From assembly GCF_030848305.1 (NCBI RefSeq), contig NZ_CP114598.1, positions 744,001-808,000 on the forward strand: a stretch of 64,000 nucleotides of DNA, read 5' to 3'. Shown here piece by piece: positions 1-11,888 of this stretch (positions within the stretch are counted from its first letter, which is position 1; each line of letters begins with the position of its first letter). Source of the stretch: Akkermansia muciniphila. Lineage in GTDB: Bacteria > Verrucomicrobiota > Verrucomicrobiia > Verrucomicrobiales > Akkermansiaceae. The notes under the pieces were generated by a model, which was given only the letters and a program-made list of their open reading frames with translations, had not been told where the DNA came from and searched no databases. A program made the position numbers and the translations under genes.

Positions 1-141
1 GTCTGCCAATACCAGCAACAGGGAATCATCCCCGGTCAGAATGGAAAAGGAATCCTGCTGGTTTTCGCGGGCGCCCAGAATTTGGTCTCCACACAATCCG
101 GAAACCTGAAAAGACCCTTGATAAAAAGACTGCTGCATCAT
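1..141 (-). CDS. PP2C-type protein phosphatase, N-terminal fragment (runs off left edge)
   Basis: The minus strand reads from two adjacent ATG codons (141-139 and 138-136) to the window edge without a stop. The 47 visible residues have the opening layout of bacterial PP2C Ser/Thr phosphatases: a GARENQQDSF stretch matching the usual R-x-x-NQD start, followed by a hydrophobic strand LLLVLAD, whose Asp would be the first metal-binding Asp of the DG motif. In this family the enzyme dephosphorylates Ser/Thr kinase targets using Mn or Mg. The rest of the gene, and so the identity of the catalytic domain, is outside the window. No clear Shine-Dalgarno is seen. Confidence 0.6.
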   Translation of the reverse strand, partial: MMQQSFYQGSFQVSGLCGDQILGARENQQDSFSILTGDDSLLLVLAD

Positions 142-255
142 GATAATGAAATACTATACTACAGCACAGCCGCCGGAATAAAGAAAGAATGTCAAAAAAA
201 CCTGACTGGATTTCTGGAATGCTTTTTCCAGAGGCCATGAATGAACGCCGCATCC

Positions 256-807
256 TCAGCCGCTCCCCAGATACACCACAGTTTCATTCGGAACCGTAAC
301 GCGTCCCTCCGTTTCAAACCGGTCAAACAACCTTTCCAGGGCGTCCAGCCAGGAGGACCGCTCTTCCCCTCCCTCCGTCAGGGCATAGGAGGCGGACATC
401 ATGCGGCGGAGATACTGCTCCCGCGTGTAGGACAAATCATTTGGGAAGCGGAATACCCGGAAACGGTGGTTGAAAAACGCTCCAATGCTGTCCGTCAACG
501 TCGCCAGGCCGCCACTGAATCCATCAAAGCGCGGACAGTAAAGACGGTGGATATCCCCTTCCTCCCGGACAACGGGACTGTCTTCCACCCTGGAGTTCCA
601 AATCAGGGCGACCCTGCCGCCTCTGGATAAAATACGGCGGCATTCCCTCTTGAACGCGGCGGCGTCAAACCAGTGGAATGACTGCGCCGCCGTCACCAGA
701 TCCACCGAAGCTCCGGGGAGCCCGGTGCGCTCCGCCGTTCCCTTCACGGAATGAAAATGGGGAAAAGCAGCCAGCCGTCTCTCCGATTCCTCCTTGCCCG
801 GTGACCG
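256..807 (-). pseudogene. Class I SAM-dependent methyltransferase, N-terminally truncated
   Basis: The frame is open from just after an in-frame TGA (810-808) to the stop at 256. It encodes the C-terminal two thirds of a Methyltransf_11-type enzyme: a KGTAERTGLP segment, the AAQSFHWFD motif found after SAM motif II, a KRECRRIL helix and the strand RVALIWN, ending in the family's usual C-terminal helical region. The first 80 to 90 residues expected in this family, including the glycine-rich SAM-binding motif I, are missing. The upstream sequence does not supply them in any frame I checked. No good start codon exists except GTG at 747. I read it as a decayed gene; a short functional protein without motif I is unlikely. 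Confidence 0.65.
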
Positions 808-1004
808 TCATGCAGAAAGGCAGGCGGGAAAGATTGCGTTCCTTGCTCATTCCCCGGCAACATGGGCGGAGCAGCCCCTACAGATGGCTTTACAAGTCCT
901 TCATGAACTTTTAGTATCCGGATCAGGCCCGCCTTTCCCGGATTGCGTCCTGACTACGGGAAAAACGAGCATCTGCGGGTTTCATTTTTCAGACAGCGCC
1001 GCCC

Positions 1005-2939
1005 ATGTTCGGATATTACAGACTTGCCTCCGCCGTCCCCCAGCTCCGCGTGGCTGATGTGGACTACAATGTCAACCAACTTACGGAGGGATTCCGGAAA
1101 GCCGCGGAACAGCAGGCGGCGGCCGTCGTTTTCCCGGAACTGTGCATTACGGGCTATTCCTGTGGAGACCTTTTTTTCCAGCCGAACCTGAGGAAAGCGG
1201 CCCTGGACGGTCTGCTCCGCTTTGCGGAAGCCACGGAAGGCTCCGGCACGATTGCCGTGGTGGGCCTGCCTTTCCTTCATGAAGACGCCCTGTACAATAC
1301 GGCGGCGATAGTTCAGTCCGGCCGCATTCTGGCGCTGGTGCCCAAAACCGTGCTCCCCAACTACCGGGAATTCTACGAAAAGCGTCAATTCACCTCCGGC
1401 AAGGAATTGGGTACAGGGGTGAAGGACGTCACAGTCAATGGGATGCGTATCCCGTTCGGGACGGGAATCGTTTTTCATGAAGAATCCTCTCCCTTCAGTT
1501 TTGGCGTGGAAATATGCGAAGACCTGTGGAGCGTCATTCCTCCCAGTTCCCAACTGGCTCTTCTGGGGGCCAGAGCCATTCTCAACCCTTCCGCAGGAAC
1601 GGAACTCACAGGCAAGGCAGCATACAGGAGGGAACTGGTCAGACAGCAGAGCGGCAGATGCCTCTGCGCCTATGTCCTTTCCTCCGCAGGTGTGCATGAA
1701 TCCACCACGGACACCGTATTCGGCGGCCATTCCCTCATTGCGGACAACGGCAGGCCAGCAGCGGAGGGGGAACGGTTCTGCAGGGAAAGTACCCTCATCT
1801 TTGCGGACGTGGATTTTGAACGGCTGGAGGCGGCGCGCCTCTCTGAAAGCTCCTTCAATGACAGCAAATCCCTTTTCCCCGCCGGGAACGCCCTGCATCT
1901 GGTCCTGCCGGAACAGGTTCCCGGAGCGCCCGGCCTGGAATACGCTTTCAACCCGGCACGGCCCTTCCTGCCTTCTCCGTCCCGCCGCCGGGAACGGTGT
2001 GAGGAAATCATCTCCATCCAAACGGCAGGTCTGGCCAAAAGAATGGAATATACCTGCGCGCAACGGCTCGTCATCGGCATCTCCGGCGGGCTGGACTCCA
2101 CACTGGCCCTGCTCATCAGCGCCCGCGCCTGCCGGGCGCTGAAGCGGCCGGCCTCGGACATTCTGGCCGTGACGATGCCCGGCTTCGGCACCACGGACAG
2201 AACCCATGATAATGCCGTAACCATGTGCCGCCTTCTGGGCGTGGAACTCCGGGAAATCCCCATCTCGGAATGCTGCCTCCGGCACTTCGCCGACATCGGG
2301 CACGACCCCGCCGAACGTACCACCACTTATGAAAACGTCCAGGCCCGCGAACGCACGCAAATTCTGATGGATCTGGCCAATAAAATCGGGGGGCTGGTCG
2401 TGGGAACAGGGGACCTGTCGGAAATTGCTCTGGGATGGAGCACCTACAATGGGGACCACATGTCCATGTACGCGGTCAACTGCTCCATTCCGAAAACGCT
2501 GATACGCTGCCTCATTGAACACATCGCGGAAGGATCATCCCCGGAACTGGCAGCAACCCTTGCGGACATCAACAGCACCCCCGTCAGTCCGGAACTCCTG
2601 CCGCCGTCGGACGACGGCACCATTGAACAGAAAACGGAAGACGTGCTTGGGCCTTACGACCTGCACGACTTTTTCCTCTTCCACTTCATCAAATACGGGG
2701 CGGAACCGGATAAAATCCTGTACCTGGCGGAACATGCCTTCCGCGGCGAATTTCAGCCGGACTTCATCCGCCGCTGCCTCGGCATCTTCATCCGCCGTTT
2801 CTTCCGTCAGCAATTCAAGCGCAGCTGCATGCCGGACGGCCCCAAGGTGGGCACCATTTCCCTTTCCCCGCGCGGGGACTGGCGCATGCCTTCCGACGCC
2901 TGCGGGACCGTGTGGGAAAAAGCCATCTCCCACTACTGA
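1005..2939 (+). CDS. nadE: Glutamine-dependent NAD+ synthetase
   Basis: Converts deamido-NAD to NAD+ with ATP, taking ammonia from glutamine, as the last step of NAD biosynthesis in the cytoplasm. The 644-residue length fits the two-domain form. The N-terminal nitrilase-type glutaminase domain has its triad at E45 (PELCITGYS), K114 (VPKTVLPNY) and C171 (VEICEDLW). The C-terminal synthetase domain carries the PP-loop SGGLDSTLALL near residue 360 and a GTGDLSEIALGW segment used for NAD-analogue binding. The gene stands alone on the plus strand and converges with the exporter gene at 3007. I chose the ATG at 1005 because the conserved domain starts within the first ten residues. Confidence 0.95.
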   Translation: MFGYYRLASAVPQLRVADVDYNVNQLTEGFRKAAEQQAAAVVFPELCITGYSCGDLFFQPNLRKAALDGLLRFAEATEGSGTIAVVGLPFLHEDALYNTAAIVQSGRILALVPKTVLPNYREFYEKRQFTSGKELGTGVKDVTVNGMRIPFGTGIVFHEESSPFSFGVEICEDLWSVIPPSSQLALLGARAILNPSAGTELTGKAAYRRELVRQQSGRCLCAYVLSSAGVHESTTDTVFGGHSLIADNGRPAAEGERFCRESTLIFADVDFERLEAARLSESSFNDSKSLFPAGNALHLVLPEQVPGAPGLEYAFNPARPFLPSPSRRRERCEEIISIQTAGLAKRMEYTCAQRLVIGISGGLDSTLALLISARACRALKRPASDILAVTMPGFGTTDRTHDNAVTMCRLLGVELREIPISECCLRHFADIGHDPAERTTTYENVQARERTQILMDLANKIGGLVVGTGDLSEIALGWSTYNGDHMSMYAVNCSIPKTLIRCLIEHIAEGSSPELAATLADINSTPVSPELLPPSDDGTIEQKTEDVLGPYDLHDFFLFHFIKYGAEPDKILYLAEHAFRGEFQPDFIRRCLGIFIRRFFRQQFKRSCMPDGPKVGTISLSPRGDWRMPSDACGTVWEKAISHY

Positions 2940-3006
2940 GACCTCCTATCCGGAAAGCTGCGGAACCGGCTTTTCCCGGAACCCGGCAAGGATGCCAAAG
3001 GCTGCA

Positions 3007-4957: not shown

Positions 4958-4965
4958 TAAAAAAA
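4958..4965 (+). repeat. Target-site duplication, left copy (TAAAAAAA)
   Basis: The eight bases TAAAAAAA directly before the left inverted repeat are repeated exactly at 9483-9490, directly after the right one. Eight base pairs is the duplication length known for IS1595-family transposition. Confidence 0.9.
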
Positions 4966-5020
4966 GGCTCTGTCCTACCAAATAGGTGCAGGAATGTATC
5001 TCATTCCAAGCGTTAGGTGC
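4966..5020 (+). repeat. Left terminal inverted repeat (55 bp) of the RM transposon
   Basis: Starts GGCTCTGTCCTACC; the first 28 bases are identical to the complement of the right end. A variable stretch of about ten bases follows, then a second shared block, CCAAGCGTTAGGTGC. This two-block layout suggests separate cleavage and binding segments for the transposase. Confidence 0.93.
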
Positions 5021-5049
5021 AGCCCACTCACAATCTTCATAAGCAAATC

Positions 5050-5077
5050 TCCCCACCATCGTCATTGACAGTGGGGA
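5050..5077. terminator. Hairpin downstream of the specificity gene, near the left transposon end
   Basis: A 7-bp stem (TCCCCAC 5050-5056 with GTGGGGA 5071-5077) with a 14-base loop, followed on the plus strand by TTTTTATT. The T run is oriented to stop transcripts entering from outside the left end. On the minus strand, after the specificity gene, there is no good T run. It may insulate the transposon from read-through. Confidence 0.45.
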
Positions 5078-5094
5078 TTTTTATTGTAACAATT

Positions 5095-6165
5095 TTACAA
5101 ATTTTCTAATTTATCGCCAGCAGGAAGAGACTTAATGTAATCTTCCATGTATTGCCAATCTGGATTCCCTTGCTTGTCTGACGGAAGCCATATCTCAGAT
5201 TCTTCCATGCGGTCTAATTTCCATTTTCTACCATAGGAAAAACGGTATTTTTCATTACGTATTACCGTGCAGATAAAAAGACCAATAGCAGGGTTCAATT
5301 CCCATCCATTAGGATAAAGAACATTGACATCATCAGAAGCCCAAAATGGAACAGGCTGATAAAATGCTTCACCTACCGACCCATTATAATTTATTGTTAT
5401 TACATTTCCTGAATGTATAGGCTGTTCATCAATATAGGCAGATACGCCATTACTGCTATCTATTGCTCCTATGAATGGTAACTTGCCCTCTACCTTATCA
5501 GCATCAGTCAAACGTTTGCCTTTTTGTAAATGAAACAAACTTCCAATTCTGAACTTCTTCCACTGTATTATACTTCGTAATAGTTCATTCTCTCCCCTCT
5601 CTCTAACTAACAATTGTTTTATTTTCAAAAGCGGGTCGCTATTATGACATGATGCTGTATTGTCTAATTTGGATAAACAGACATTTAATGATGGAAGTTC
5701 TTTTACATAACTTTCCATGTATTCCCAATCTGGCTCTTCGCAATTATTCACAGGTAATGAAATTTCCAATCTCTTAATTACACTGCTGTATACTGCTCGC
5801 CCATAATTAAAACGATAACGCTCGCCGTTTATGACGGAGCAAAGATACAATCCTTTATAAACATTCATGTGAAAACGAGGAATAAGAATGTTTACCCTCC
5901 CGTGGGAAACTGCATAAAATTTTTGCGAATGGAAATATGCCTTGCAAAACATATCTACTGTTATAGCATTTGCAGGAAACATTTGTGCTTTCCCATCTCC
6001 TACGCCGTCTACATATCCCACAACACCATTATTAGTGTCACCTGCTGACACCAATGGAATGTAACCTGTTTCTGGTGACGAAATCGTATGTGATTCTTTC
6101 AAGTCCCCTTTTGACAATTCAACATCAAATAATTGACCTATCTTGAACTTTTTGTATTTTATCAT
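5095..6165 (-). CDS. Restriction-modification specificity (S/B) subunit with two target-recognition domains
   Basis: The 356-residue protein has two related halves. The first starts KKFKIGQLFDVELSKGD and contains a TNNGVVGY segment; the second starts KKFRIGSLFHLQKGKRL with PFIGAIDSSNGVSAY. Each ends in a similar helix: EPDWEYMESYVKELP in the first half and NPDWQYMEDYIKSLP in the second. This is the pattern of Type I HsdS and BcgI-type B subunits, in which each half reads one part of a split DNA target. Its ATG overlaps the stop of the methylase gene by 4 bases (ATGA), giving tight coupling. No separate HsdR or ATPase gene is present, which argues for a Type IIB/IIG system. The target sequence cannot be predicted from here. 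Confidence 0.88.
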   Translation of the reverse strand: MIKYKKFKIGQLFDVELSKGDLKESHTISSPETGYIPLVSAGDTNNGVVGYVDGVGDGKAQMFPANAITVDMFCKAYFHSQKFYAVSHGRVNILIPRFHMNVYKGLYLCSVINGERYRFNYGRAVYSSVIKRLEISLPVNNCEEPDWEYMESYVKELPSLNVCLSKLDNTASCHNSDPLLKIKQLLVRERGENELLRSIIQWKKFRIGSLFHLQKGKRLTDADKVEGKLPFIGAIDSSNGVSAYIDEQPIHSGNVITINYNGSVGEAFYQPVPFWASDDVNVLYPNGWELNPAIGLFICTVIRNEKYRFSYGRKWKLDRMEESEIWLPSDKQGNPDWQYMEDYIKSLPAGDKLENL

Positions 6166-8018
6166 AATGCATTACTTGTTTGAATTTGAAATGCAATATA
6201 ATCTCTCAACACTTTTTCAAAGTCAGATTGTTGCAGTTGAGAGTAGTCTGTTTCCATATATGCTTCACATAGCCATTCTTCATCTGCTGTTACCTTTCTT
6301 ACTGCGGACATGCCTTCCACGCTGTGTTTCTTCCTATATAAGTCAAGCCAATGTTCCTCTATCTTATTCCATAATCCTTCTTCCTTTTCTACTCGCCCGT
6401 AATTCTTTCTTTTTACAAATCCATCATCCTTAAAGTAACCGAAGAAAGTCTCTTTGATAGGTGCAGACTCATGACGAACACCTAAATCAAATACCATGCA
6501 ACAGGCACACACAGTAGCACCAGGATGGAATACATCGTTAGGTAAAGAGAATACCGCATCTAAATGGTGTTTTTGTAGCATCCGTTCCTTAATTGCTCGA
6601 ATCTCCTTATCATTACCGATAGCGCACGCCATTGGTAGCAACGCAACTAATTTGCCCTTACCCACTGTATTAGCAATGTATTCAACAAAGTGGAAGCCTT
6701 TTGTTGGGTCTTCGTCTTTCTTCTTCCCTTTGCTCCATTTTTTTGTATAGGCTGGATGACATTTAATGCGTTGGGCATTATATGGGGGATTCATTAGAAC
6801 TGTGTTTATCTGAGCATCCTGTATCCAATCCTCCCGCTCAAAACAGTTAGCCTTTATCACATTTGAATTACCATCCCCATGAATTAACATATTCGTAGTA
6901 GATAATCCAAAGGCATAGTCTTCATCTTCGATGCCATATATTTGCTCTTTCTTCACCTTTTGTTCATCGGCGATGTTTCCATTGCAATCATCAATCGCTT
7001 CTGTCAATGCTCTTACCAAAAAAGCACCACTTCCGCAACAAGGGTCAAGAACTCGTGAATTTCTATTGACATTAGCTACTTTACACAAGAAATGAACGAT
7101 GTGGTCGGGCGTGAACGCCTGATTCTTATCCTTCTTGCCCACATACTTATTGAAGGTTGTAAAGAAAAGGTTAAGAATATCTTGCCCTCTACTGGTCTTA
7201 TCATTGATAAATGGTAAGATTTCCTTCTTAATCTTATCTAAAATTTCAATAAAATTCTCGCTTGATAATCTCTTTACCGACTGTGCTTCAAGGATATTAT
7301 TCTTCAATCGCGCTAACTTCTCACCTTTATGGAGATTATGTTCAAGCAGACCTTCCAAACAATCCTCCATTGAAGCAATAATTGCCTTTGTTGTTAAGCG
7401 GTTATAATCAAACTCCTCTGGTTTAAGGCGTTTTAATGCAAGTAGGCATGTTCCAACAAATTGGCTTCGTAACGCTTCTTCAATTCCCAATCCATGCAGT
7501 AATTCATTTAATTCATATGTACTACGAATTACTTTATCTTTGTTATTTTCCCTACCAAAGAAGACTTCTCTATAACCACTAAATGAGCGCAGTTCAGTCT
7601 CTTCCTTTAAGAAATTTTCCTCACAAACATCTCCTCGCCATACCATGATGCGATTATCGTTAGTATTAGCAAGAATGGCGATAATGCGATTATGTCTAAC
7701 TAAAACCTTTTCAAATTCTACATAGCATTGCAATTGCTGCATTGCTGCATCTAGGCAAGTATCATAATTCTGTTTTGTTTCAATGAGAACAGATACTCGG
7801 TCATCTGCAAATCTTAAATCCAGATTCTTATGAATTGTCCCATTGACAGTCACCAAATTTCTGTCAATCTTCTTCTTTTTCAGAAGTTCATTGTAACTCC
7901 ACTCATCGTTCTCAATATTACTTTGTAACTGAGTTCGCCCAACCGAGGCAATTACATCAACTCGGTTTCTGGAAAGTCTGCTACCCCCTCCAATCTGTTC
8001 ATTATCAATACTTCGCAT
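6162..8018 (-). CDS. Restriction nuclease-N6-adenine methyltransferase fusion (BcgI A-like)
   Basis: A 618-residue protein with two functional parts. The N-terminal part carries a PD-(D/E)xK-type nuclease signature, D67 in NLDLRF and E80-x-K82 in VLIETKQ, with an HsdR_N-like surrounding fold. The methylase part starts about residue 290 with NQAFTPDHIVHFLC, motif I DPCCGSGAF at 325-333 and motif IV NPPY at 410-413, typical of N6-adenine methylases. Together with a separate two-TRD subunit of 356 residues this matches the architecture of BcgI-like Type IIB enzymes, which cut on both sides of their site. It is read from a consensus promoter (8079-8051) with an AGGAAG ribosome site before the ATG. 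Similarity to BcgI is recalled, not searched. Confidence 0.88.
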   Translation of the reverse strand: MRSIDNEQIGGGSRLSRNRVDVIASVGRTQLQSNIENDEWSYNELLKKKKIDRNLVTVNGTIHKNLDLRFADDRVSVLIETKQNYDTCLDAAMQQLQCYVEFEKVLVRHNRIIAILANTNDNRIMVWRGDVCEENFLKEETELRSFSGYREVFFGRENNKDKVIRSTYELNELLHGLGIEEALRSQFVGTCLLALKRLKPEEFDYNRLTTKAIIASMEDCLEGLLEHNLHKGEKLARLKNNILEAQSVKRLSSENFIEILDKIKKEILPFINDKTSRGQDILNLFFTTFNKYVGKKDKNQAFTPDHIVHFLCKVANVNRNSRVLDPCCGSGAFLVRALTEAIDDCNGNIADEQKVKKEQIYGIEDEDYAFGLSTTNMLIHGDGNSNVIKANCFEREDWIQDAQINTVLMNPPYNAQRIKCHPAYTKKWSKGKKKDEDPTKGFHFVEYIANTVGKGKLVALLPMACAIGNDKEIRAIKERMLQKHHLDAVFSLPNDVFHPGATVCACCMVFDLGVRHESAPIKETFFGYFKDDGFVKRKNYGRVEKEEGLWNKIEEHWLDLYRKKHSVEGMSAVRKVTADEEWLCEAYMETDYSQLQQSDFEKVLRDYIAFQIQTSNAL

Positions 8019-8050
8019 AAATCTTCCTGCTTAACCCTCTTACTCTTCAT

Positions 8051-8079
8051 ATTATAACACTGTTCTTACTTACTGTCAA
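8051..8079 (-). promoter_or_regulatory. Consensus promoter of the RM genes
   Basis: On the minus strand TTGACA (8079-8074) and TATAAT (8056-8051) are separated by exactly 17 bases: a perfect sigma70-type match. The start codon lies at 8018, preceded by AGGAAG. Confidence 0.88.
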
Positions 8080-8136
8080 ACTGTTATTAAAAACCTGGAA
8101 TTCTTCTAATTTTTCTCATAACATATTAGAATTCTA

Positions 8137-8165
8137 TTGACAATACTGTTTCAATAGCGTATAAT
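8137..8165 (+). promoter_or_regulatory. Consensus promoter of the transposase gene
   Basis: TTGACA (8137-8142) and TATAAT (8160-8165) with a 17-base spacer, again a perfect match. The transposase ATG is at 8188 with AAAAGG upstream. Copies of ACTGTT occur in both promoters (for example 8146-8151 and 8080-8085) and could be regulator contacts; this is weak. Confidence 0.88.
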
Positions 8166-8187
8166 TCTTTTGTAAAGAAAAGGAATT

Positions 8188-9228
8188 ATGAAGAACGAAG
8201 CCATAACAAAGTTAATCAAAGAGTTCAAGTCGCTCTCTGTATCAGAAAGAGAGAAGTTTATTGACTTTGTTACTGCTAATTCATCGCCTTCTGACTTCAA
8301 GTTTATTGTTGATACGAAACTTGCCGATGGTATCGTTTGCCCTCATTGTGGAGCAAAAGGAAAAGGCGTAAGAAAAAGTGGATACCAGAAGAACGGTCGT
8401 CCTCGCTTCTATTGCTTTCATTGTAACAAAAAGTTCTCCATTACCACTAACGGTGTTCTCTACTACTCCAAAAAGGACTTCTCCGTCTGGAAAGAGTTTA
8501 TCTCCTGCTTCCTCCATGGATTCTCTGTTCGTAAGTCCGCTGAAATCTGTGGTATCAACAAGAATACCGCTTTCCTTTGGAGACACAAACTCTGTGATAG
8601 CCTCGTGGGTATTATGGACGGTGTTAGCCTTTCTGGTATCGTTGAAGCCGATGAGACCTACTTCCGTGTGAGTTACAAGGGCAACCGTCAAGCGTTCAAG
8701 AATGGTAGCGTGGATAGAAAGAAGCGTAAGCGTGGTACTTCCATTCTCCACAGGAACAGAAAGCGTGGTTTATCTCGTGAGCAAGTCTGTGTTCCGTGCG
8801 CTATTAACCGTTCTGGTCTGTCCGTTTCCAAGATTAGTGGATTAGGTAAGGCTTCCCATGATGGTATCTCCTCTGTTATCAGCGGTCACATCTCCAAGGG
8901 TTCAATCCTTTGTGCAGATGGTGCTACTGCTTATGATACATTGGCAGCAAACAAGGGTTTGGAGCGTGTGAGTGTGAGTTCCTATGGTCTTTACAACATT
9001 CAGCGTATGAACTCCTATCACAGCCGACTGAAGGGCTTTATTGACCGTTTCAACGGAGTTTCCACAAAACATCTGAATGGCTACTTGGTTTATAACAACT
9101 TCGCCAATCACGCCAAAGAGACTTACACGGAGAAGGTAAGAATTCTTACCAATCACATTTGTTCGGTCAAGTGTTTCACCAAGAGAACAAAAGTGAGTGA
9201 CCGTCCTGTGATTCCTATGGTTGCTTGA
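8188..9228 (+). CDS. IS1595-family (ISXO2-like) transposase of the RM transposon
   Basis: A 346-residue transposase. The N-terminal helical region is followed by a zinc ribbon with C51-x2-C54 and C76-x2-C79, then the ISXO2-like catalytic core. The first acidic residue is D155 (VEADETYF) and the second D244 (CADGATAYD). At the third position, where the sister transposase at 10971 has E254 (NGIESFWALLK), this protein reads MNSYHSRLKGF, so N275 appears to replace Glu. Asn-type variants of the triad are known within IS1595, so the protein may still be active. The perfect target duplication shows that this element has moved. The gene is driven by a perfect consensus promoter and ends before a strong terminator. 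Confidence 0.9.
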   Translation: MKNEAITKLIKEFKSLSVSEREKFIDFVTANSSPSDFKFIVDTKLADGIVCPHCGAKGKGVRKSGYQKNGRPRFYCFHCNKKFSITTNGVLYYSKKDFSVWKEFISCFLHGFSVRKSAEICGINKNTAFLWRHKLCDSLVGIMDGVSLSGIVEADETYFRVSYKGNRQAFKNGSVDRKKRKRGTSILHRNRKRGLSREQVCVPCAINRSGLSVSKISGLGKASHDGISSVISGHISKGSILCADGATAYDTLAANKGLERVSVSSYGLYNIQRMNSYHSRLKGFIDRFNGVSTKHLNGYLVYNNFANHAKETYTEKVRILTNHICSVKCFTKRTKVSDRPVIPMVA

Positions 9229-9249
9229 GAACTACTGTATAATAAGAGT

Positions 9250-9351
9250 ATGAGTTACGATAATAAAGAAGTAATCAAAGAGATAATAAAGAAGCAAATT
9301 CAGAAACAGGAAATGTTCTCTGAGATGGCAACGGTAGCGCGTGATTATTAG
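9250..9351 (+). CDS. Possible 33-residue small protein after the transposase
   Basis: An ATG at 9250, 21 bp after the transposase stop and preceded by AAGAG, opens a 33-codon frame with an amphipathic Lys/Glu/Gln/Ile helix and TAG at 9349. It lies between the transposase and the terminator, so it would be co-transcribed. No family is recognised. Confidence 0.3.
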   Translation: MSYDNKEVIKEIIKKQIQKQEMFSEMATVARDY

Positions 9352-9366
9352 TTAGAGATTAGAATT

Positions 9367-9403
9367 CAGAAAAGTCATTCCCAACCAAGGAATGACTTTT
9401 CTG
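9367..9403 (+). terminator. Terminator of the transposase unit
   Basis: A 15-bp perfect stem (9367-9381 with 9389-9403; arms CAGAAAAGTCATTCC and its complement) with a 7-base loop. The stem contains A and T runs near its base, so it may terminate in either direction. Confidence 0.75.
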
Positions 9404-9427
9404 CTACTTGTATTTGTCTGTTATCTC

Positions 9428-9482
9428 GCACCTAACGCTTGGATTATCTAGTAATCCTGCACCTATTTGGTAGGACAGAGCC
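9428..9482 (-). repeat. Right terminal inverted repeat (55 bp) of the RM transposon
   Basis: The complement of this segment begins GGCTCTGTCCTACC and matches 4966-5020 in an outer 28-base block and an inner CCAAGCGTTAGGTGC block, differing only in the middle stretch. Confidence 0.93.
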
Positions 9483-9490
9483 TAAAAAAA
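9483..9490 (+). repeat. Target-site duplication, right copy (TAAAAAAA)
   Basis: Exact repeat of 4958-4965, directly after the right inverted repeat. Confidence 0.9.
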
Positions 9491-10939: not shown

Positions 10940-10971
10940 GCCGTCATCTTGTTTGCAGGGTGGCGGCTTTT
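10940..10971 (+). terminator. Terminator of the beta-barrel gene
   Basis: A 9-bp stem with two G-U pairs (GCCGTCATC 10940-10948 with GGTGGCGGC 10959-10967), a 10-base loop, followed by TTTTCATTT. It reaches the last codon of the convergent transposase gene. A second weaker hairpin lies at 10891-10914. Confidence 0.6.
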
Positions 10972-11888
10972 CATTTCCAGCATAAGCCCATCAAAACTTC
11001 AAAAGCTTCATTCTCGTTCCTATAACATTGCCTGAAACAGAATTCATCCACATATTTCTGTAGGTGTTTAAGAGAAACATGGTGAAATATCCCATGAATA
11101 CCTCTTTTCAGTAAGGCCCAAAAGCTTTCAATTCCATTAGTGTGAACCCCATTGCCCGCACTAAACATGACATTATGGTCAATCATGATGCGGGTAAGAT
11201 TCTTATTGTTAGGATAGTTCAGAATATTGTAGCCCTTAAACTGGTCAGTCATGACTTTGGTATTAGGTTTGCAAACCTTGCTAAGGACATTGAACAATTG
11301 TTTGCCCGTCAATTGTTTTCCTTCTTCATTCCTATTGGCAACGACGGCATGAACTTTCCCAGTTCCCCTTTCCCTGACTCCAATAACAGGAACTTTAGCC
11401 GTCCCTCTTCCTCTAGGATTTTTCGGCAAGTCGTCATCATCCCCATGTTCATTCTTCTTCCGGGGTTTTCCTCCAACATAGGTTTCATCAATTTCTACAA
11501 TTGCCTCAAAAGTTTCTCCTACCTCTCTTTTTGCCATAGCACTTCTAATTTTGTGCATCATCCTCCAAGCGGTTTTATAAGAAACACCTAACTCCCTTTT
11601 CAATTGCATGGCTGAAATTCCTTTTTTAGACAAACAAACCATATTAATAGCATAAAACCAATGTCTTAAAGGCATTCTTGTTTCCTCAAAAATGGTTCCC
11701 TTGAAAATAGAGAATTCCATCTTACAGTTGTTGCAATAGGCATTGCGGCAATTATAGTGAGCGTGATAAACCTTCTCCGTTTTCCCGCAAAATGGGCAAA
11801 CTATTTTTCCCTCAAACCGTTTTTCAATGAGATATTTTGCCACACTCTCATCATCAGGGAATTTTTCAATGAATTCGCGGTACGTCAT
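10971..11888 (-). CDS. IS1595-family (ISXO2-like) transposase, DDE type
   Basis: A 305-residue transposase with N-terminal zinc ribbon (C31-x2-C34, C52-x2-C55), a helical linker with HTH character (ISAMQLKRELGVSYKTAWRM) and a catalytic core with D134 (VEIDETYVGGK), D215 (VMTDQFKGY) and E254 (TNGIESFWALLKRG). All three catalytic positions are intact. It is clearly a different lineage from the transposase at 8188. Its promoter side faces the right end of the proposed outer element, 75 bp away. The AGGAG ribosome site sits in the arm of a hairpin (11892-11917). Confidence 0.92.
   Translation of the reverse strand: MTYREFIEKFPDDESVAKYLIEKRFEGKIVCPFCGKTEKVYHAHYNCRNAYCNNCKMEFSIFKGTIFEETRMPLRHWFYAINMVCLSKKGISAMQLKRELGVSYKTAWRMMHKIRSAMAKREVGETFEAIVEIDETYVGGKPRKKNEHGDDDDLPKNPRGRGTAKVPVIGVRERGTGKVHAVVANRNEEGKQLTGKQLFNVLSKVCKPNTKVMTDQFKGYNILNYPNNKNLTRIMIDHNVMFSAGNGVHTNGIESFWALLKRGIHGIFHHVSLKHLQKYVDEFCFRQCYRNENEAFEVLMGLCWK

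Follow-up and report, generated by a model that had tools for sequence, protein, structure and literature searches.

A bounded IS1595-family transposon with a predicted BcgI-like restriction-modification system in Akkermansia muciniphila, and the varying cargo of its relatives

The element and its gene content

The stretch of Akkermansia muciniphila DNA analysed here (64,000 nucleotides of contig NZ_CP114598.1, hereafter the window) contains at positions 4966-9482 a bounded transporter insertion sequence (an insertion sequence, IS, that carries passengers) belonging to the ISSag10 group in the IS1595 family, whose passenger genes are predicted to encode a restriction-modification (RM) system. 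The element measures 4517 bp, and its coordinates are exactly those given in an earlier note on this DNA, in which 55-bp inverted ends and a perfect target duplication had been claimed; both are present. The ends GGCTCTGTCCTACCAAATAGGTGCAGGA form a perfect inverted repeat of 28 bp (29 bp if one flanking base pair is counted) starting with GGCTCTGTCC, as is typical of the ISSag10 group (about 25 bp, GGC start). The left terminal inverted repeat occupies 4966-5020 on the forward strand, with the perfect 28 bp at 4966-4993, and the right one occupies 9428-9482 on the reverse strand; a second perfect inverted block of 16 bp lies at 5005-5020 / 9428-9443, and the left and right ends are 88% identical over 55 bp. 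The region of this block (4994-5020 / 9428-9454) is symmetric at both ends here and missing from the aligned sister elements. The target duplication TAAAAAAA is perfect (8/8) and has the 8-bp length of the IS1595 family, its identical copies lying at 4958-4965 on the left and 9483-9490 on the right. By our own arithmetic, the chance of an 8/8 duplication in the AT-rich flanks is about 1e-4 and that of a 28-bp perfect inverted pair is <1e-9. No second copy of the ends was detected in the closed 2.65-Mb single-contig genome. The GC content of the element is 37-41%, against 55-60% for window positions 1-3000; the value reported for A. muciniphila is 55.8% (PMC3048395).

The transposase gene occupies 8188-9228 on the forward strand and is intact, in agreement with the earlier note. 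Its product of 346 amino acids (aa) falls within the IS1595 family by NF033547 (1e-50; 172.6 bits, cut-off 75) and by Pfam DDE_Tnp_IS1595 (3.1e-11; 43.9, cut-off 27); a zinc-ribbon match stayed under the Pfam cut-off, and the family combination of a zinc ribbon with an ISXO2-like DDE-type domain was judged to be present. The nearest named elements are ISSag10 (43% identical) and ISCaje5 (41%). All compared members, ISSag10 included, have N-x-x-H around the position of the third catalytic residue, whereas a second, distant IS1595-family transposase of the window (10971-11888, 27% identical) has E at this place. The DNA that adjoins the RM transposon on its right has an 88% identical counterpart beside another IS1595-type gene at about 1.957 Mb in the same genome.

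The cargo consists of two co-directional, adjacent genes on the reverse strand, divergent from the transposase, which encode subunit A (6162-8018, 618 aa), in which a PD-(D/E)xK nuclease is putatively fused to a gamma-type N6-adenine methyltransferase (MTase), and subunit B (5095-6165, 356 aa), a putative specificity subunit with two target-recognition domains (TRDs). The genes overlap by ATGA at 6162-6165, and this two-gene arrangement, described in the earlier note, was recovered at the same positions, together with D67, E80, K82, DPCCGSGAF and NPPY in A. The element holds no other methylase gene, as expected of BcgI-like systems, which have no separate methylase. Subunit A matches Pfam N6_Mtase (1.9e-32) and PADLOC type IIG models of 614 aa (4.2e-56) and 637 aa (6.8e-46), and its N-terminal nuclease region gave no direct profile match. 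In an alignment, L-D67-[LI]-R-F and [IV]-E80-T-K82 are invariant in all seven A homologues with a complete N-terminus. The AlphaFold2 model of A has a mean predicted local distance difference test (pLDDT) score of 70, with 79-91 in most ten-residue blocks of residues 61-150, and displays, in the PD-(D/E)xK order, strands at 68-71 and 75-82, then a helix and a further strand, D67 starting the first strand and E80/K82 ending the second. The structural alignment of this model with the solved type IIB enzyme BsaXI covers residues 9-566, with Z 19.7 and a root-mean-square deviation (rmsd) of 17.8 over 484 residues, a high value that probably comes from differing domain placement; residues 156-566 alone give Z 19.9 and rmsd 5.0 over 381 residues. 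With DrdV the model aligns over residues 12-586 (Z 18.6, rmsd 8.5 over 458 residues). The strand order, the invariant D67/E80-x-K82 and the BsaXI alignment over residues 9-566 all agree with the PD-(D/E)xK nuclease that the earlier note had placed in the N-terminal domain. Subunit B matches Pfam Methylase_S in two stretches (4.2e-31) and a PADLOC type II specificity model (9.9e-50), its gene contains an internal repeat with copies 570 nt apart, and its model aligns over residues 1-345 with HsdS 1ydx (Z 14.4, rmsd 12.0, 279 residues). As judged from sequence and structure models, the element thus carries all parts of a BcgI-like RM system, namely a nuclease-methylase subunit A and a two-TRD subunit B, and by analogy A and B may be active as an enzyme with two-sided cutting. 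Beyond Akkermansia, A has homologues (L006-L016) that are 43-56% identical and mostly lie beside a B gene; they were considered as copies of the same transposon and rejected as such, because the transposase was not found in 10 of the 11 genomes and G147 holds only a distant, interrupted copy, and they are therefore relatives of the RM system.

Putative regulatory and accessory DNA was observed around these genes. Two divergent promoter-like sites of the form TTGACA-17-TATAAT (12/12 each), called by consensus scan only, lie at 8051-8079 on the reverse strand for A/B and at 8137-8165 on the forward strand for the transposase. A predicted hairpin terminator of the RM genes, found by terminator scan and left-end alignment, lies at 5050-5077 on the reverse strand and is kept in sister elements with other cargo. 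On the forward strand at 9250-9351, the right-end alignment exposes a 33-codon remnant, left by an internal deletion, of an accessory open reading frame (ORF) which measures about 170 aa in sister elements.

An unoccupied site was detected in G017, a congener of another species, with a query of joined flanks, where a single alignment spans the junction and the left flank is 94% identical as far as the single target copy; an empty site of this kind was what the earlier note had proposed to look for. The ends, the 8-bp duplication and the empty congener site together indicate that the element inserted here as a unit. The RM genes do not lie always at the same locus without the ends, the circumstance that the note had named as speaking against it, as the G017 site is empty and sister elements with ends and duplications lie elsewhere.

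Sister elements in Akkermansia and their cargo

Ends with GGCTCTGTCCTAC were observed in 22 of the 76 genomes of the genus, some of the single matches being probably due to chance. Two-ended units with target duplications of 7-8/8 include L056 (4449 bp, 7/8), L057 (3095 bp, 8/8) and L061 (4092 bp, 8/8), and small two-ended units without a transposase of the window type were also found, with lengths of 248-252, 633, 1240 and 1457 bp (7-8/8). Two sub-families were distinguished. In sub-family (i), with the end CCTACCAAATAGG, the RM cargo is enclosed by the left end on one side and the transposase, from which it is divergent, on the other: BcgI-like in the window; an 834-aa nuclease/methylase-like fusion in L056, recognised from motifs only and with no match in Pfam, PADLOC, NCBIfam or PHROG; and a 755-aa single-chain type IIG enzyme in L190 (4.1e-44), where the contig ends before the transposase. 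L058 resembles this sub-family, with similar ends, a damaged transposase and a slot without cargo. In the alignment of the window element, L056, L190 and L058 the left end and the hairpin terminator are conserved, and the DNA upstream of the transposase is conserved in the window, L056 and L190, while the RM genes between them differ.

In sub-family (ii), with the end CCTACCACAGTGTTGATTTTT, the cargo lies 3' of the transposase and covers several RM types: a type II pair of restriction endonuclease (REase; 3.8e-91) and MTase (2.8e-136) in L061 and L062; a C5+N6 methylase fusion (7.3e-228) with a REase (1.4e-80) in L059; an N6 methylase (6.6e-82) with a REase (3.5e-66) in L060; type II methylases in L066 (2.2e-117) and L069 (2.8e-118), L066 also having a REase (1.7e-19) that is probably EcoRI-like by its motif; a type ISP gene in L065 (E = 0), with L067 and L068 assigned to the same by DNA identity to L065; and type I hsdS, hsdM and an hsdR fragment in L064. 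L059, L060 and L061 have transposases that share 93-95% identity, and their three RM cargoes are unrelated. The cargo of the two-ended L057 consists of non-RM genes.

Altogether 16 loci of the genus carry a transposase of the window's clade, fragments included, two of them being cut by contig ends. RM genes adjoin 11 of the 14 readable loci (nine by profile, two by DNA identity to a typed one), the transposase being fragmentary in six of these eleven (L064-L069), and the remaining three are L056 with its motif-only fusion, L057, and L058 with nothing. Because the 14 loci form a non-random sample and many genomes are fragmented assemblies, 11/14 represents a strong trend, not a rate. Two candidates, L198 with type III genes and L216 with type I genes beside an end, were left out of the count since no transposase or second end was seen. 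Across the genus, RM cargo varies from element to element, while the ends, the transposase and the regulatory DNA at its flanks are retained.

Several further units with such ends were observed. In L198 (9784-19701, G020:C2), one end and an accessory ORF stand beside a type III methylase gene (6.6e-282), with the restriction gene split in two ORFs. In L214 (7827-9283, G060:C56), the 1457-bp unit is bounded by IS1595-type ends of the same kind, the duplication AAAAGCTA is perfect, and its sole large ORF encodes TnpB (NF040570, 2.7e-45, and also Pfam), so that TnpB is apparently carried here by the ends of another transposon family. Three elements of 248-252 bp (L204 1940-2191, L210 9778-10025 and L212 432-679) exhibit the same ends and perfect 8-bp duplications and are too short for genes; they are probably miniature inverted-repeat transposable elements moved in trans by a transposase of the window type. 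An accessory ORF of about 170-180 aa without family match lies 3' of the transposase in sub-family (i) (L056 5735-6259), and a similar ORF stands alone inside the 633-bp unit L207 9470-10102. At the right end of sub-family (ii), an accessory ORF beginning MIRSVAGQQEAYDNFIEWLLES occurs in L061 (11646-12119), L062 (11088-11759), L065 (2557-3030) and L198 (9873-10349), the L062 form having a C-terminal PBECR2 nuclease-like domain (8.1e-8). L062 (10999-13869, G060:C51) also displays a second end and, between it and the contig end, a type II specificity gene with distant likeness to B (PADLOC 5.4e-45), and is perhaps another BcgI-like transposon, of sub-family (ii).

Relatives outside the genus and known systems

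The transposase is rare in the two outside orders searched (7/392 and 5/393 genomes), and no RM cargo was recognised there, the delimited elements holding small non-RM cargo or none. In viral contigs, the transposase was represented by one distant element with non-RM cargo, and GGCTCTGTCCTACC was found in 81 stretches with one match each, which were taken as chance matches and not inspected singly. Among described elements, ISSag10 / MTnSag1 and tISCpe8 share with the window element the transposase group, ends beginning with GGCTCTGT (GGCTCTGTCA in the ISSag10 copy), AT-rich 8-bp duplications and a passenger within a single IS. The ISSag10 copy with lnu(C) (L229) served as the positive control of the end and duplication method, and its duplication TTATAAAA was recovered (8/8). 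These elements differ in carrying one lincomycin-resistance gene in 1.7 kb, whereas the window element carries a two-gene RM system in 4.5 kb. For MTnSag1, 25-bp ends, a circular intermediate and mobilisation have been described (PMC5704250).

That a simple IS1595 element can carry RM genes has a precedent in ISCaje5, so named in the record annotation of a C. coli plasmid (NZ_CP082875), an IS1595-like element with both ends and a perfect ATTAATTT duplication (8/8) at L230 3875-6773; no paper naming it was found in the literature. Its cargo comprises genes for a methyltransferase of type II (2.9e-44), for a 188-aa product containing a D-x-K motif and for a helix-turn-helix protein, and is probably a restriction-modification-controller (R-M-C) set; it differs from the window in RM type, and the 188-aa product matched no restriction-enzyme model. 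A bounded element on a Collinsella plasmid, with the duplication TTCTTTTT (8/8), carries an 885-aa methylase with a specificity-like C-terminus beside a RelB antitoxin gene; outside the genus, it and ISCaje5 are precedents with partial similarity. The H. pylori plasmid pY95 has such a transposase flanked by a type II methylase and by a nuclease of the AlwI family, and ends were not found.

On the enzyme side, the type IIB / multimeric type IIG enzymes BcgI, BaeI, CspCI and BsaXI have separate RM (A) and S (B) subunits as in the window, and BcgI has the composition 2A:1B and combines methylation with two-sided cleavage of a bipartite site (PMC3874165). The A/B sizes of 618/356 aa compare with 614-637 and 341 aa for the best PADLOC models, and the sequence similarity of the BsaXI chain to the window A is weak (phmmer 9.9e-6). 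The background given in the earlier note, namely the A/B make-up of BcgI and the passengers of IS1595 elements, fits these sources (PMC3874165; PMC5704250). The same note's view that RM systems rarely travel on an IS-like unit stood in part only: RM genes are known to move with insertion sequences and to be selected by post-segregational killing, with composite-transposon RM units cited (PMC3031569), so that IS-linked RM is less unusual than the note implied, whereas a whole system in a single simple transposon is little documented. The IS-linked systems of that source comprise cointegrates, plasmids and units with an IS on either side, whereas in the window element a single IS encloses the RM genes within its own pair of ends. 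No paper on RM transposons in Akkermansia or on RM cargo in IS1595 elements was found in the literature, in a search that was without the founding description of IS1595 (Siguier 2009), which may mention methylase passengers.

Explanations weighed and their meaning

The preferred explanation is that a transporter IS with a BcgI-like cargo inserted here as a unit and is one member of a transposon group whose RM cargo varies, to which a probability of about 0.9 is given, and the earlier note's interpretation as a simple transposon carrying an RM system is supported to this extent. Several observations weigh against it. The empty site of G017 is imperfect, with about 20 diverged or extra bases directly to the right of the insertion point; G143, of the same species as the window, lacks both the element and its flanks; the exact element with the same cargo was not found in the other genomes searched; and most sister elements lie in fragmented assemblies, several being one-ended or degraded. 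G029 has only a fragment 93% identical to A and fused to B, possibly from a chimeric contig or an assembly artefact, and it was not used as a second copy.

How the cargo comes to vary may be explained in two ways. It is about an even chance that the Akkermansia IS1595 family acts as an exchange platform, in which RM systems of almost all types (I, II, IIG/IIB, ISP and perhaps III) are swapped by transposition and recombination in a slot between the conserved end/terminator and the promoter/transposase DNA, a single small mobile unit thereby turning over the restriction specificity of its hosts. With somewhat under an even chance, the cargo is exchanged by homologous recombination between resident elements through their shared ends, promoter DNA, transposase and accessory gene, not by new transposition, the transposon serving mainly as a landing pad for RM genes; this would be compatible with the insertion of a transporter IS. 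The boundaries of the slot coincide with conserved DNA in the sub-family (i) alignment, and two species carry the same locus with the same truncated transposase and differing cargo, type I genes in L064 (G042) and a type ISP gene in L065 (G046), the flanks being 97.0-98.9% and the transposase remnant 95% identical, and L065 holding, on the far side, an additional stretch of about 1.7 kb ahead of its end. Replacement of the cargo within a resident element is the simplest reading of this pair. Different elements nevertheless occur at different sites with different duplications, which indicates that transposition occurs too, and the two ideas are not exclusive.

It is unlikely that the RM genes of the window are a single accident in an isolated transporter IS, with no special link between transposon and RM systems. 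The same transposase group does carry other cargo, such as lnu(C) in ISSag10, DinB, kinase-like and TraX-like genes, or none; resistance genes adjoin ISCco2; and within the genus G033 has non-RM cargo and the slot of G052 is empty. This explanation is opposed by the 11 of 14 loci which adjoin RM genes and the twelfth with its nuclease/methylase-like fusion, most of the systems being mutually unrelated. That the RM genes are ordinary chromosomal genes beside an IS or between solo ends, in an operon that never moved with the element, is very improbable because of the G017 site, which lacks the whole 4.5 kb, and is further opposed by the two ends, the perfect duplication and the fact that L056 and L061 are likewise bounded by two ends, although G038 has a 47-51% identical A and a truncated B in its chromosome without such ends and several sister loci are one-ended.

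For the inserted transporter IS, a mechanism can be proposed by analogy with known relatives. Two A and one B would assemble into a complex that would recognise an interrupted asymmetric site, methylate both of its strands and cut unmodified DNA on either side of it. The transposase would, as described for MTnSag1, copy the unit out via a circular intermediate and into AT-rich targets, which would be duplicated on integration, and the unit may also be mobilised in trans. The methylase would protect a new host, and the nuclease would penalise loss and exclude phages and plasmids, so that vehicle and cargo may aid each other's persistence. Continued transposition of the element and its transfer between cells or species may likewise take place.

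Each component of the window element was already known, as were IS1595 elements with passengers; what is new is that, within a single genus, one transposon family carries RM cargo repeatedly and interchangeably. RM turnover between strains is fast and its vehicle usually unclear, whereas here the vehicle is small, bounded and common to many species of one gut genus, the cargo varying while the vehicle stays largely constant. The GGCTCTGTCCTACC ends provide a simple marker for finding new restriction enzymes, and questions on the mobility of RM systems, on their selfish maintenance and on phage resistance in Akkermansia become directly testable. The IS1595 RM transposons look like shuttles by which immune systems are handed from genome to genome.

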